Shown: positions 32,785-36,480 of the stretch, in pieces
Position numbering within the stretch: position 1 is the first letter of the stretch
How the letters are laid out: each line of letters opens with the position of its first letter
Origin: Mangrovibacillus cuniculi
GTDB taxonomy: Bacteria > Bacillota > Bacilli > Bacillales > R1DC41
Assembly (NCBI RefSeq): GCF_015482585.1
Contig: NZ_CP049742.1
Span: 136,501 to 200,500 of the forward strand
Direction of reading: 5' to 3'
DNA length: 64,000 bases
Program-made: the position numbers and the translations under genes
Notes under the pieces: model-generated
Seen by the model: only the letters and a program-made list of their open reading frames with translations
Told to the model about the DNA's origin: nothing
Databases searched by the model: none

Positions 32785-33357
32785 TTATTCTCCTTTACTA
32801 CAACAAGGTTTAGTCATCTGCATTTCAATTGTTCTTCTGGCGCTTTCAAACGTATGGACTTCTCCACCAAATCCTTTTGTAAAACCAATTGCGTCACTTT
32901 CTGAAGAAAATAACAAAGCTTGAGGCTCACAGCACTTTAGTGGAAGAGAAGATTGTAAAACATAGTAACCCATTCTTCCGTTTATCGTTGTATCCATCAG
33001 GTAGTCTTGTCCGATTATGTTTAACACTTCTTCTTCCACATGTTGCATATGTAGTAAGGCGCAATGAGGACAACATACACTAACAACTTCTTGTGACTTT
33101 TTCACAAATTTCATCGATAATCTACTTGTTGCAGGTTTAAAACAAACGACACAGTCATTAGAAGATACAGAGCTTGTGACTTTTAGTGAAATTCCATTTG
33201 GCGTTTTTTCCACTAGTTTTTCTTCTACTAACTGATGCACATCACGATAAACTGTCATTTCTGATACATTTAAGCGCTTACTTATTTCGGATATCTTTAA
33301 ATATTTTTCTTGCCTTAACCACTCTATTAACTGTTCTTTTCTTTCTGCTGGTAACAT
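32785..33357 (-). CDS. DeoR-like HTH regulator with Cys-rich C-terminal domain
   Basis: 190 residues from the ATG behind AGAGGTG. An N-terminal DeoR-type helix-turn-helix (RKEQLIEWLRQEKYLKISEISKRLNVSEMTVYRDVHQLVEEKLVEKTPNGI) is followed by a C-terminal part with many cysteines: CVVC, VCCPHC, KCC and CC near the end. These look like metal-binding ligands, and the part superficially resembles NosL-type proteins. The stop is 2 nt from the PepSY gene start, suggesting a metal-sensing repressor of its own operon. Ligand (Cu, Fe or Zn) is not determinable. Confidence 0.75.
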   Translation of the reverse strand: MLPAERKEQLIEWLRQEKYLKISEISKRLNVSEMTVYRDVHQLVEEKLVEKTPNGISLKVTSSVSSNDCVVCFKPATSRLSMKFVKKSQEVVSVCCPHCALLHMQHVEEEVLNIIGQDYLMDTTINGRMGYYVLQSSLPLKCCEPQALLFSSESDAIGFTKGFGGEVHTFESARRTIEMQMTKPCCSKGE

Positions 33358-33542
33358 TCTCTTCACCTCTCTGTCTATTACTCTACACCATAATTGTGTG
33401 GTAATCTGTGAATATTTGTGAATATGTGGTGTCAAGACAGTGAACGCATTGTTACATATATGTGAATTAACACGTTACTAGCTATTTACACGGTGATGGA
33501 AAAATGAGATGATTATGGTAATTAAAGGAGGGACGGTACAGT

Positions 33543-33563
33543 ATGGAACCAACTAATTTCTAA
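33543..33563 (+). CDS. Putative six-codon leader peptide MEPTNF
   Basis: ATG 10 nt behind AAAGGAGGG, ending TAA after six codons. Small translated leaders of this kind sense ribosome-targeting antibiotics upstream of ABC-F genes. It is not otherwise recognisable. Confidence 0.5.
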   Translation: MEPTNF

Positions 33564-33744
33564 TTTATTAATTGAAAAATTAATAGTCATTTTGTAAGAC
33601 GTGAAAAAATTGCCTAGCAAAATAGGTTTATTTGTTATGCGCTTATGGAATGGATAGAAATTAGAAGGTACCTTACTATACTGGACTCGCGGATTATGCG
33701 GAAATGCATGCGCTTGAAGCATGTTTCTTTCCACACGTGCGTAG

Positions 33745-33787
33745 AAAAGACGGTAAGGAGTGATGTAGACTTCTTGTCGTCTTTTTT
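33745..33787 (+). terminator. Leader terminator (attenuator) of the ABC-F gene
   Basis: A nearly continuous 17-bp stem (33745-33761 with 33769-33785, three G-T pairs) with loop GATGTAG runs into T6. It precedes the ABC-F start by 138 nt, and no plus-strand gene lies upstream except the six-codon leader. Confidence 0.75.
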
Positions 33788-33924
33788 GTTACTTGACCAG
33801 TAACAACTCCGTGTCGGCCACGTGATGTGGCCAGCTCTTAACGGAGTATCCCTAATATAATATCCAACTAGTAAGCTACTTTCATCTTCTATTGGTCCAT
33901 AAGTGACTTTGAAGGAAAGTAGGA

Positions 33925-35835
33925 ATGAACATGTTAGAACTGAAAATTCAAGGCATCAAAAAATATATGGATTCCACGCTCGTATTAGAAAACGTATCGT
34001 TAGAGGCTTATGGTCACGAAAAAGTAGGCATTGTCGGAATGAATGGAAGTGGGAAGAGTACGATCTTGCGAATTATCGCAGGTTTGGAACCTATGAATTA
34101 CTACCCAGGATATCCACAGACTACGAGTTTTGGCTATGATGAAGGACTGATCCATCGGCCGAAACACGCGACGTGTGCTTACCTCGAACAGACACCACAT
34201 TACCCTAGCCATTGTAAAGTCATTGATGTGCTTAATGAAGCATTTGAGGAAGTAATGGAGCTAGAGGGACAGCTTCGCGAAATAGAGGCAAAGATGAATG
34301 AGGTAGAGGGCGTAGAGTTAGAACGACTGTTGAAAAAGTACAGCGATGTCACCCAACAATTTGAAGCCAAAGGTGGATATGAGCGAGAAGAAAAACTTGC
34401 AAAGGTGTGCACAGGGCTAAAATTTACCGAAGAGTTCCTTCAGAAAGACTTCTCGATGTTAAGTGGAGGAGAGAAAACCACTGTTGGACTAGGGAGATTG
34501 CTGATGAATAATCCTGAGGTCTTACTGCTGGATGAGCCAACCAACCATCTAGATATGGACTCGGTGGAGTGGTTGGAGGGGTTCTTGCGTAACTATAAAG
34601 GTATCGTGTTAATCGTTTCCCATGATCGTTACTTCTTAGACAATGTAGTAACAAAAATTGTTGAAATAGAAGATATGGAATCGACCATGTATAAAGGGAA
34701 CTACTCCTCTTTTGTAGAGCAAAAAGAAGAAAATATGCGCATTTTATATGAGCAATACCGAGAGCAGCAAAAGAAGATTCATGGTATGCAACAGCAGATT
34801 AAAAGTTTGCGAGACTGGGCAATGAGGGCGGACAACAACAAGTTTTTCAGACGGGCAGCGAGCATTCAAAAAAGACTTGATAAAATGGAGAAGATCGATA
34901 AACCAGTGTCGGAACGAGAAAAGATGAAACTTCAATTTCATACGACAGACCGTTCGGGGAAAGAAACGATCAAGGCCATGGAGATTAGTAAACGGTATGG
35001 TGACAAAGTTTTGCTGGATGCCGCGAATGCGATCGTTCATTACGGTGAAAGAGTAAGTCTCATCGGTGCAAACGGCAGTGGTAAAACTACCTTCTTACGT
35101 ATGCTACTCGAAGAAGAAGCACCCGATAGCGGTCAAGTAGCATTCGGAGCGAGTGTGAAAGCTGCTTATCTACCACAAAAATTTACGTTTACAGATGAAA
35201 ATAGCACTGTGTTAGAAACGTTCCGAGAAGACTTTGATATTTTTGAAGGAAAAGCAAGAGAGTACTTGGCGAAGTTTATGTTCTTCGGTGGCAGTGTGTT
35301 TAAAAAAGTGAAACAGCTGTCAGGAGGCGAACGAATTCGCTTGAAGTTAGCGATTTTGTTATTCCAGGAAATCAATGTTTTGATTCTGGATGAGCCAACG
35401 AACCATTTGGATATCGAATCGATAGAAACGCTCGAAGCGGCTTTGGACGATTTCAAAGGTACGATCTTCTTCATTTCGCATGACCGTTACTTTATTAATA
35501 AGTTTGCAAGCAGGTTGATTGCGTTAGAGAATGCCACACTCACAAGCTATGCGGGGAACTACGATTACTACCGGCAGCAGAAGGAGAAAGAAGTGCCTGT
35601 GGTTGTAGAGAAACCGAAGAAAGTGGTGGTGCGAGAAGTTGAGAAGGCACCAAAGGTTGATCGGAAGCGAGTAGAAGAGCGAATCTTCGCCTTAGAGCAG
35701 CAAGTAGCAGAGCTGGAGAAAAAATTAGAAGATGCGACGCTCGGGCTAGAGGACATGCAGAAACTGTATGAGAAGAAGCAGGCGGCAGATGCAGAACTAG
35801 AAGCCGCGATGCTGAAGTGGATGGAGTTGGAATAG
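33925..35835 (+). CDS. ABC-F family ATPase (ribosomal protection type)
   Basis: 636 residues, two ABC domains in one chain without membrane helices. Domain 1: Walker A GMNGSGKST (38-46), signature LSGGEKTTVGLGRLL, Walker B LLLDEPTNHLD, SHDRYFLD. The interdomain linker (about 240-330) is arginine- and lysine-rich and long, as in ribosome-protecting members. Domain 2: GANGSGKTT, LSGGERIRLKL, ILDEPTNHLD, SHDRYF. A charged C-terminal coiled coil (about 565-636) follows. Such proteins displace antibiotics from the ribosome or act as translation factors. ATG 33925 and 33931 are both possible starts. An upstream terminator suggests attenuation control. Confidence 0.9.
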   Translation: MNMLELKIQGIKKYMDSTLVLENVSLEAYGHEKVGIVGMNGSGKSTILRIIAGLEPMNYYPGYPQTTSFGYDEGLIHRPKHATCAYLEQTPHYPSHCKVIDVLNEAFEEVMELEGQLREIEAKMNEVEGVELERLLKKYSDVTQQFEAKGGYEREEKLAKVCTGLKFTEEFLQKDFSMLSGGEKTTVGLGRLLMNNPEVLLLDEPTNHLDMDSVEWLEGFLRNYKGIVLIVSHDRYFLDNVVTKIVEIEDMESTMYKGNYSSFVEQKEENMRILYEQYREQQKKIHGMQQQIKSLRDWAMRADNNKFFRRAASIQKRLDKMEKIDKPVSEREKMKLQFHTTDRSGKETIKAMEISKRYGDKVLLDAANAIVHYGERVSLIGANGSGKTTFLRMLLEEEAPDSGQVAFGASVKAAYLPQKFTFTDENSTVLETFREDFDIFEGKAREYLAKFMFFGGSVFKKVKQLSGGERIRLKLAILLFQEINVLILDEPTNHLDIESIETLEAALDDFKGTIFFISHDRYFINKFASRLIALENATLTSYAGNYDYYRQQKEKEVPVVVEKPKKVVVREVEKAPKVDRKRVEERIFALEQQVAELEKKLEDATLGLEDMQKLYEKKQAADAELEAAMLKWMELE

Positions 35836-35872: not shown

Positions 35873-35893
35873 CTTGGTTGATGCACAGAAAAA

Positions 35894-36310
35894 TGAGGCA
35901 TCTGCACACAATTGGAGAGTTGTGCACAGAAAACCGGGAGATCTGCACACAATTGGAGAGTTGTGCACACAAAAGCGAGAGGTCTGCACACAATTTAGGA
36001 GTTGTGCACACAAAAGCGAGAGGTCTGCACACAATTTAGGAGTTGTGCACACAAAAGCGAGAGGTCTGCACACAATTTAGGAGTTGTGCACACAAAACCG
36101 GGAGATCTGCACACAATTAGAGAGTTGTGCACACAAAAGCGATAGATTTGCACACAATTAGAGAGTTGTGCACACAAAAGCGAGAGATCTGCACACAATT
36201 TGGCAGTTGTGCACAAAAAAGCGAGAGATCTGCACACAATTGGAGAGTTGTGCACACAAAAGCGAGAGATCTGCACATAAATTGGAAGTTATGCACACAA
36301 AATCGAGGTA
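35894..36310 (+). repeat. 41-bp tandem repeat array with TGCACAC cores
   Basis: GTTGTGCAC recurs at 35919, 35960, 36001, 36042, 36083, 36124, 36165, 36206 and 36247, with a GTTATGCAC variant at 36288: exactly 41 bp apart, ten clear copies. Each unit has the form TGCACACAA-spacer-TTGTGCACACAAAAGCGAG, where TGCACA(c)AA and TTGTGCA can pair. CACAAAAGCG is shared with the 42/43/85-bp arrays, so it is the same repeat family. The period is not a multiple of three, so long frames through it are accidental. Confidence 0.9.
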
Positions 36311-36480
36311 ACTGCGCACAATCCGAAAGTAATGCTCAGAAAATCAAGAGAATCACACACATTCCACACCAATTCCACCCACTTTTCCAAACACAGTTAT
36401 GTTCTCCCACGTTAGGTGTTATAATAGCTGAGGTAGAAATCAGACAAACTAGAAAAAATAGAGTAGCAGGAGGCACCAAA

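Follow-up and report, generated by a model that had tools for sequence, protein, structure and literature searches.

A probable vmlR-type attenuator, ribosome-controlled and with a uORF family of its own, upstream of an ABC-F gene in Mangrovibacillus cuniculi

Background

The ABC-F gene in a 64,000-nucleotide stretch of Mangrovibacillus cuniculi DNA (NZ_CP049742.1, positions 136,501 to 200,500; hereafter the window) is preceded by a region rich in hairpins, which raises the question of how the expression of this gene is controlled and in response to what. The host genome, of 3.15 Mb, is the sole member of its genus and family in the genome set used. The initial annotation had proposed a leader attenuator ruled by a ribosome on a short upstream ORF (uORF), and the present analysis supports that proposal, as the uORF, the helix enclosing it, the terminator and a hairpin covering the Shine-Dalgarno sequence (SD) of the gene are conserved and covary. 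We consider it highly likely that the ABC-F gene is governed by ribosome-mediated attenuation acting on both its transcription and its translation. It is very probably a real attenuator of a known kind, that of vmlR, with its own uORF family, which would be new to the set.

With this leader, the few attenuators known for ABC-F genes gain a further well-conserved regulatory RNA. An Rfam scan of the window gave 0 matches at gathering score and the switch fits no Rfam family. Likewise, no description of the leader or of the uORF peptides MEPTNC, MEPTSNC and MMPSNC was found in the literature searched, subscription journals and supplements being outside that search.

Organization and conservation of the leader

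The features of the locus are collected in Table 1. Close orthologs of the ABC-F protein (E 4e-241 or better, 58-69% identical) occur in at least 41 of the 397 genomes of the order, the window's included, and among the matches listed the next one falls at 2e-165 and 46%; the searches scored the best 3 (protein) or best 7 (covariance model) candidates per genome, and members may be missed. Four named relatives (Priestia taiwanensis, Rossellomorea marisflavi, Evansella tamaricis and Ectobacillus antri) came from another collection. Left out of the counts were the E. tamaricis leader (L040), which the 600-base upstream limit had cut, and L015, L024 and L030, duplicates of L038, L039 and L041 by identical leader sequence. 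All 41 close orthologs are preceded by a uORF-bearing leader with the same order of parts, namely promoter, uORF, helix, TTATTT hairpin, terminator and SD hairpin, a recurrence that goes beyond chance occurrence. The fold of the 405-base leader in the window also reaches -137.7 kcal/mol, shuffled versions giving -92.0 ± 5.2 (z -8.8, 0 of 100 shuffles).

Table 1. Positions in the window of the leader elements, the adjoining repeat and the ABC-F gene
Feature	Position	Strand	Basis
Promoter, TTTACA-17-GATGAT, TG ahead of -10	33485..33513	+	promoter scan; -35 kept in orthologs
Shine-Dalgarno of uORF, AAAGGAGG	33524..33531	+	read directly; conserved in alignment A1
uORF, MEPTNF + TAA	33543..33563	+	read directly; ortholog consensus M-x-P-[T/S]-(S)-x-C
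Anti-antiterminator, long-range helices, uORF region 33534-33562 with 33655-33683	33534..33683	+	window fold, ortholog structure, covariation
Apical hairpin GCCTA...TAGG, then TTATTT	33612..33633	+	resembles vmlR's NusG-dependent pause signal as described in PMC9226507
Antiterminator strand ACCTTAC	33670..33676	+	direct reading, predicted pairing
Intrinsic terminator, 5′ arm with GTAAGG 33753-33758 (antiterminator partner)	33744..33787	+	direct reading, fold, orthologs
Dispersed repeat, Bacillaceae-1 (RF01690) type, begins in the terminator's T run	33782..33861	-	Rfam model match, genome copies
Hairpin over the ABC-F Shine-Dalgarno, CTACTTTC with GAAAGTAG	33876..33922	+	fold, ortholog comparison
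ABC-F protein gene	33931..35835 (first ATG of the frame 33925)	+	start at 33931 probable

The -35 hexamer TTTACA stands at the matching place in 38 of the 41 leaders (TATACA in one, none found in two). Simple scans returned promoter-like sites (7, with 7.1 expected) and terminator-like sites (4, with 2.6 expected) at chance level, the latter missing the attenuator terminator. A promoter downstream of the terminator, which the initial annotation had named among the observations that would speak against an attenuator, was not seen, the promoter scan giving no plus-strand site at 33787-33924 and one at 33485-33513.

The strong ribosome site and six-codon ORF of that annotation were read directly where it had placed them. 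A putatively translated uORF with its own SD was present in 41 of 41 ortholog leaders, the 600 bases upstream being read; this first reading predates any model, and the uORF finder used later demanded ATG-NNN-CC and an SD-like stretch. The encoded peptides were MEPTNC (16 leaders), MEPTSNC (6), MMPSYC (4), MMPSNC (3), MMPTNC (3), MEPTNCQY (2) and seven singletons, the MEPTNF of the window among them. The MEPTSNC form arises by a three-base insertion that keeps the frame. The CC of the proline codon is invariant in 47 of 47 places, although its first C has no G partner in 13 of them; this points to codon 3 being held by its coding function.

The terminator, previously described as a 17-bp stem with T6, is present, with 18 pairs in the minimum-energy fold (33744-33786, about 13 of them outside the A/T tract) and T6 at 33782-33787. 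A terminator before the gene was detected by scan in 40 of the 41 leaders and placed by motif in the remaining one, L060. As in vmlR-type attenuators, a last hairpin covers the SD of the gene: its window arms CTACTTTC and GAAAGTAG stand for CTTCTTT and AAAGAAG of the other leaders, and it was recovered by script in 36 of 42 cases, five of the six misses being leaders in which the script did not locate the SD and the hairpin was seen separately. The ATG at 33925 that had been taken as the ABC-F start is indeed the first of the frame, but it directly abuts the SD, and the start codons of the orthologs correspond to the ATG at 33931, where translation probably starts.

Structure and covariation of the 5′ region

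In the window fold, in the structure of an ortholog and in the covariation, a first stem encloses the uORF, as is expected of vmlR-type attenuators. The uORF start codon sits in or beside a bulge of this anti-antiterminator helix, within which lie two hairpins, one small (33565-33586) and one long (33587-33653). The TTATTT that follows the apical hairpin is found in 36 of the 41 leaders, with TTGTTT and TTATTC in one each and none found in three, so that the putative pause motif TTNTTT occurs in 37 of 41.

RNAalifold recovered hardly any consensus from the MAFFT alignment (A1; -1.99 kcal/mol, 11 pairs). A single ortholog, L025, therefore provided the fold on which the structure was set manually; its free fold agrees with the helices so set for the long-range helix and for both hairpins, small and long. 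In A1, which is a sequence alignment unfitted to the model and without L061, there were 11 two-sided pairs (both bases changed) against 5.0 ± 1.7 in shuffled alignments (0 of 500), one version with the structure slid along also reaching 11; the covariation score was 0.085, shuffled alignments giving 0.067 and slid versions no more than 0.033. In the model-fitted alignment (A2, 47 places), whose fitting leans towards the structure, there were 25 two-sided pairs against 7.2 ± 1.9 shuffled (0 of 500) and 7-12 slid. Close orthologs share ancestry and these counts are thus not independent. The covariation supports the 5′ structure.

The window itself offers a natural variant at codon 6, where TTC replaces TGC (Cys to Phe) and the partner strand reads GAAATTAG in place of GCAATTAG. 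In its own fold, ten unbroken pairs run across the changed codon and GAAATTAG; A2 shows the changed cell as U-G owing to a register shift. Since the substitution is met by a matching change in the partner, it suggests that the helix, rather than the cysteine, is what is kept at this codon. Such a uORF parts the needs of the RNA helix from those of the peptide and makes the sensor testable.

Predicted switching between antiterminator and terminator

The ACCTTAC that the initial annotation had put forward as a possible antiterminator is complementary to GTAAGG over 6 bp (CCTTAC/GTAAGG), and its proposed role agrees with folding predictions in which the pairing is switched by a ribosome mask on the uORF. 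In these, the transcript was ended at the terminator loop, a 43-base ribosome mask was applied, and pairing of the CTTAC strand with the GTAAG arm was scored. The predicted value in the window was 0.00 for the free RNA and 0.99 with the mask on the uORF. Across the 41 leaders the means were 0.01 and 0.48, values above 0.5 being reached by 0 leaders free and 20 masked; the other 21 stayed at or below 0.5 even with the mask.

For 40 leaders (L060 was left out of the shuffle and footprint controls), a mask placed elsewhere gave 0.01. Shuffling the terminator arm or the 3′ strand gave 0.22 and 0.29 against 0.49 for the real sequences, with Wilcoxon p of 5e-6 and 0.005, respectively, for sequences that are related to each other. 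In the window alone, 1 of 8 arm shuffles and 2 of 8 strand shuffles equalled the real value, so that the window by itself is no proof of the antiterminator. In the ortholog leaders, too, the 5′ arm of the terminator can pair with the uORF-enclosing helix. Full-length RNA still favoured the terminator under the mask, the lowest value being 0.70, and a switch of this kind must therefore be kinetic, decided during transcription.

The position of the footprint also matters in these predictions. In the 40 leaders antiterminator pairing was 0.41 with the ribosome at the start codon (16 leaders above 0.5), 0.42 at codon 3 (18), 0.13 at codon 5 (3) and 0.05 at the stop codon (2), the corresponding values for the window being 0.98, 0.72, 0.85 and 0.03. 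This modelling favours a switch that an early stall opens and normal termination closes.

On the reading favoured here, transcription would start near 33520 and RNA polymerase may pause past the hairpin at 33612-33627, at TTATTT, giving a ribosome time to begin the uORF. Once that ribosome has completed the uORF and dissociated, the uORF region would pair with 33655-33683, locking ACCTTAC away; the terminator would then form and transcription stop, and any read-through RNA would be silenced further by the hairpin over the ABC-F SD. An inhibitor that holds the ribosome early on the uORF would block the helix, and ACCTTAC could pair with GTAAGG in the 5′ arm of the terminator while the 3′ arm has yet to be transcribed, letting the polymerase enter the ABC-F gene. 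What is observed is the set of parts, how they are conserved and the 5′ covariation; the pause, the sensing of a drug and the opening of the last hairpin are steps that we infer, and the uORF-dependent change of pairing is a prediction of the folding.

The ABC-F protein and the signal sensed

The gene product passes the NCBIfam model NF000355 (ribosomal-protection-like ABC-F, a broad model) at 466.4 bits with a cut-off of 380, and carries Pfam ABC_tran twice together with ABC_tran_Xtn. Its likely function is to protect ribosomes from antibiotics. A FastTree of 39 leaves groups the orthologs in a single clade (support 1.00) that is separate from OptrA, PoxtA, VgaA and MsrE; this tree does not include VmlR, omits L045, L050 and L051 (short or with stops), and has MsrE and L004 entered as fragments of 392 and 476 aa. 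Branching of the clade with OptrA (ARE7), PoxtA (ARE8), VgaA or MsrE (ARE1) was not seen in this tree, identities being in the 28-36% class. L004, another ABC-F of the same genome that lies outside the window, has an extended linker of 90 residues, like VgaA and MsrE.

Drug sensing by the leader is likely, and the locus marks a chromosomal ABC-F clade as probably drug-inducible. The lincosamides, pleuromutilins and streptogramin A type drugs named in the initial annotation are possible inducers. The same switch could instead sense context-dependent inhibitors of the phenicol or oxazolidinone type, with the stall at codon 5 behind Thr/Ser4 and not at or just after initiation, a reading that is possible though, as we see it, less likely than not. 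It draws on codon 4 being Thr or Ser in 46 of 47 places and on the inter-domain linker, whose length between fixed columns, 72 residues, is close to that of PoxtA (71) and OptrA (67) and unlike VgaA (95) and MsrE (99). Leaders of chloramphenicol-inducible cat genes share this stall register, and PoxtA and OptrA act on phenicols and oxazolidinones. Chloramphenicol and linezolid are described as stalling best with Ala, then Ser or Thr, at the penultimate position (PMC8987054). However, the signal from the amino acid at codon 4 is confounded by the pairing of this codon's middle base in the helix, and a footprint at codon 5 opens few of the leaders in the predictions given above compared with the start codon or codon 3, high as its value is in the window. 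Short linkers, of 64-66 residues and so little below 72, also occur in the housekeeping-like ABC-F paralogs of the same genome.

Somewhat more doubtful is the view that the switch has no drug specificity, any slow translation initiation (general ribosome stress) opening it, and that the ABC-F serves in translation or in assembly and not in resistance. Ribosome defects are reported to induce VmlR as well (PMC9226507), and the protein lies outside the resistance branches named above, its best solved relative being EttA at 294.7 bits, with the VmlR structure 6ha8 below it at 258.6 bits (phmmer). Against this stand the score for the ribosomal-protection-like model, broad as that model is, and an occurrence that is patchy across the order, unlike that of a housekeeping factor. 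That the 5′ region is constitutive, its hairpins being ordinary and its short ORF a product of chance, would agree with the chance-level promoter and terminator scans but is hardly credible given its conservation in all 41 orthologs, the in-frame variation of the uORF and the two-sided covariation.

Comparison with known attenuators

By sequence, the layout is that of vmlR, a dual transcription and translation attenuator, with another uORF and another ABC-F clade. The vmlR leader of Bacillus subtilis likewise has an SD and a uORF in a bulge of the first stem, the anti-antiterminator, followed by a hairpin that bears a TTNTTT pause motif, a terminator and a last hairpin over the ABC-F SD (PMC9226507). 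It differs in its uORF, MIN, against six to eight codons with an invariant Pro3 here, and in a leader of about 219 bases against 382 before the gene (PMC9226507); the ABC-F considered here is of another branch with a short linker, and its switch is predicted from sequence.

The leaders of cplR, vmlR2 and lsaA share a short uORF, a terminator and an ABC-F gene, but their uORFs are MR[I/M], MK[L/Q] and MAGN, and the cplR terminator itself covers the SD of the gene (PMC10201436). The ABC-F uORFs described in that paper are MIN, MK[L/Q], MR[I/M] and MAGN. The tlrB (yxjB) leader of B. subtilis is alike in its uORF, terminator and SD-covering hairpin and in a NusG-dependent pause, required in tlrB and putative here, and differs in a nine-codon uORF that ends in the macrolide motif RYR and in serving an rRNA methyltransferase gene (PMC6851288). 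Further sources for comparison were BmrB (PMC4191407), uORF4u (PMC10219788), a survey of ABCF proteins (PMC6723617) and a review on context specificity (PMC13410324).

In a related clade of ABC-F proteins, with about 44% identity (L063-L068, L070, L071, L156), the conserved uORF is a different and longer one, of some 34-51 codons. This uORF, present in 9 of the 10 loci inspected, carries a motif resembling [YF][IV]CRAIFH (YIVRAIFS in Listeria), and terminator-like hairpins are present.

Distribution of the leader and a copy before a GNAT gene

A covariance model built from 40 leaders, which match it by construction (L061, G084, G099, both leaders of G131, G313 and G649 were not used in building it), found at least 46 places in at least 45 of the 397 genomes at E below 1e-9. 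With E up to 0.1 the number of genomes was at least 46, the weak match in G200 (E 0.0475) not being counted as a leader. Outside the order, the leader occurs in at least one genome of the 398 in the class sample, G649, where it stands before an ABC-F remnant. In G084, G099, G131 (C4) and G313 the ABC-F frame after the leader is broken or cut short. Such leaders, retained before broken, truncated or remnant ABC-F copies, are those of loci L102, L104, L105, L106 and L108. No plasmid copy of the leader was found by blastn, and among 1655 plasmid records no protein reached 60% identity to the ABC-F.

A second leader in G131 (L103, 1001-1870; 64.1 bits), with the uORF MKPTNC, precedes a gene for a 180-residue GNAT acetyltransferase with weak matches to nourseothricin acetyltransferase. 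The leader is missing from the orthologs of this GNAT gene, as among 30 GNAT loci examined upstream only this one had it, and among 38 leader-bearing genomes a second copy scored convincingly in G131 only, two others being weak (E 0.13 and 0.36). Its presence before this acetyltransferase gene is a hint as to which compound induces the switch. We would suggest, very tentatively, that the MxP[T/S]NC leader works as a portable cassette for sensing, the uncharacterised short-linker ABC-F clade and one GNAT sharing a ribosome-stall switch that reports a specific class of inhibitor, possibly phenicol-like, against which both protect; this is more doubtful than not.

Neighbouring repeats and genes

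Two hairpins after the terminator had also been assigned to the switch. They exist, at 33787-33805 and 33806-33847, but as a switch component they are rejected, as they belong to a dispersed repeat of Bacillaceae-1 type that adjoins the switch, and the last hairpin that matters for the latter is the one over the SD. The hairpins resemble Bacillaceae-1 RNA (RF01690) on the minus strand at 29.5 bits, which is under the gathering score of 35. Elsewhere in the genome the repeat has at least 43 matches at E up to 1, with at least 24 over the cut-off, the best 150 of 281 candidates having been scored and the window copy not being among those listed. The window copy is 86% identical over 80 columns to that in L148, hits occur in 8 of 10 fetched copies, and the copies in L147, L148, L150 and L152 share the start TTTTTTGT.

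On the other side of the leader, a divergent gene on the minus strand (32785-33435) encodes a DeoR-type HTH protein whose second half contains several Cys pairs; it lies next to a PepSY_TM protein. Downstream, between the ABC-F gene and a gene for an RlmD-type methyltransferase, lies a tandem array at 35877-36322, with a unit of 41 bases in 10.9 copies.
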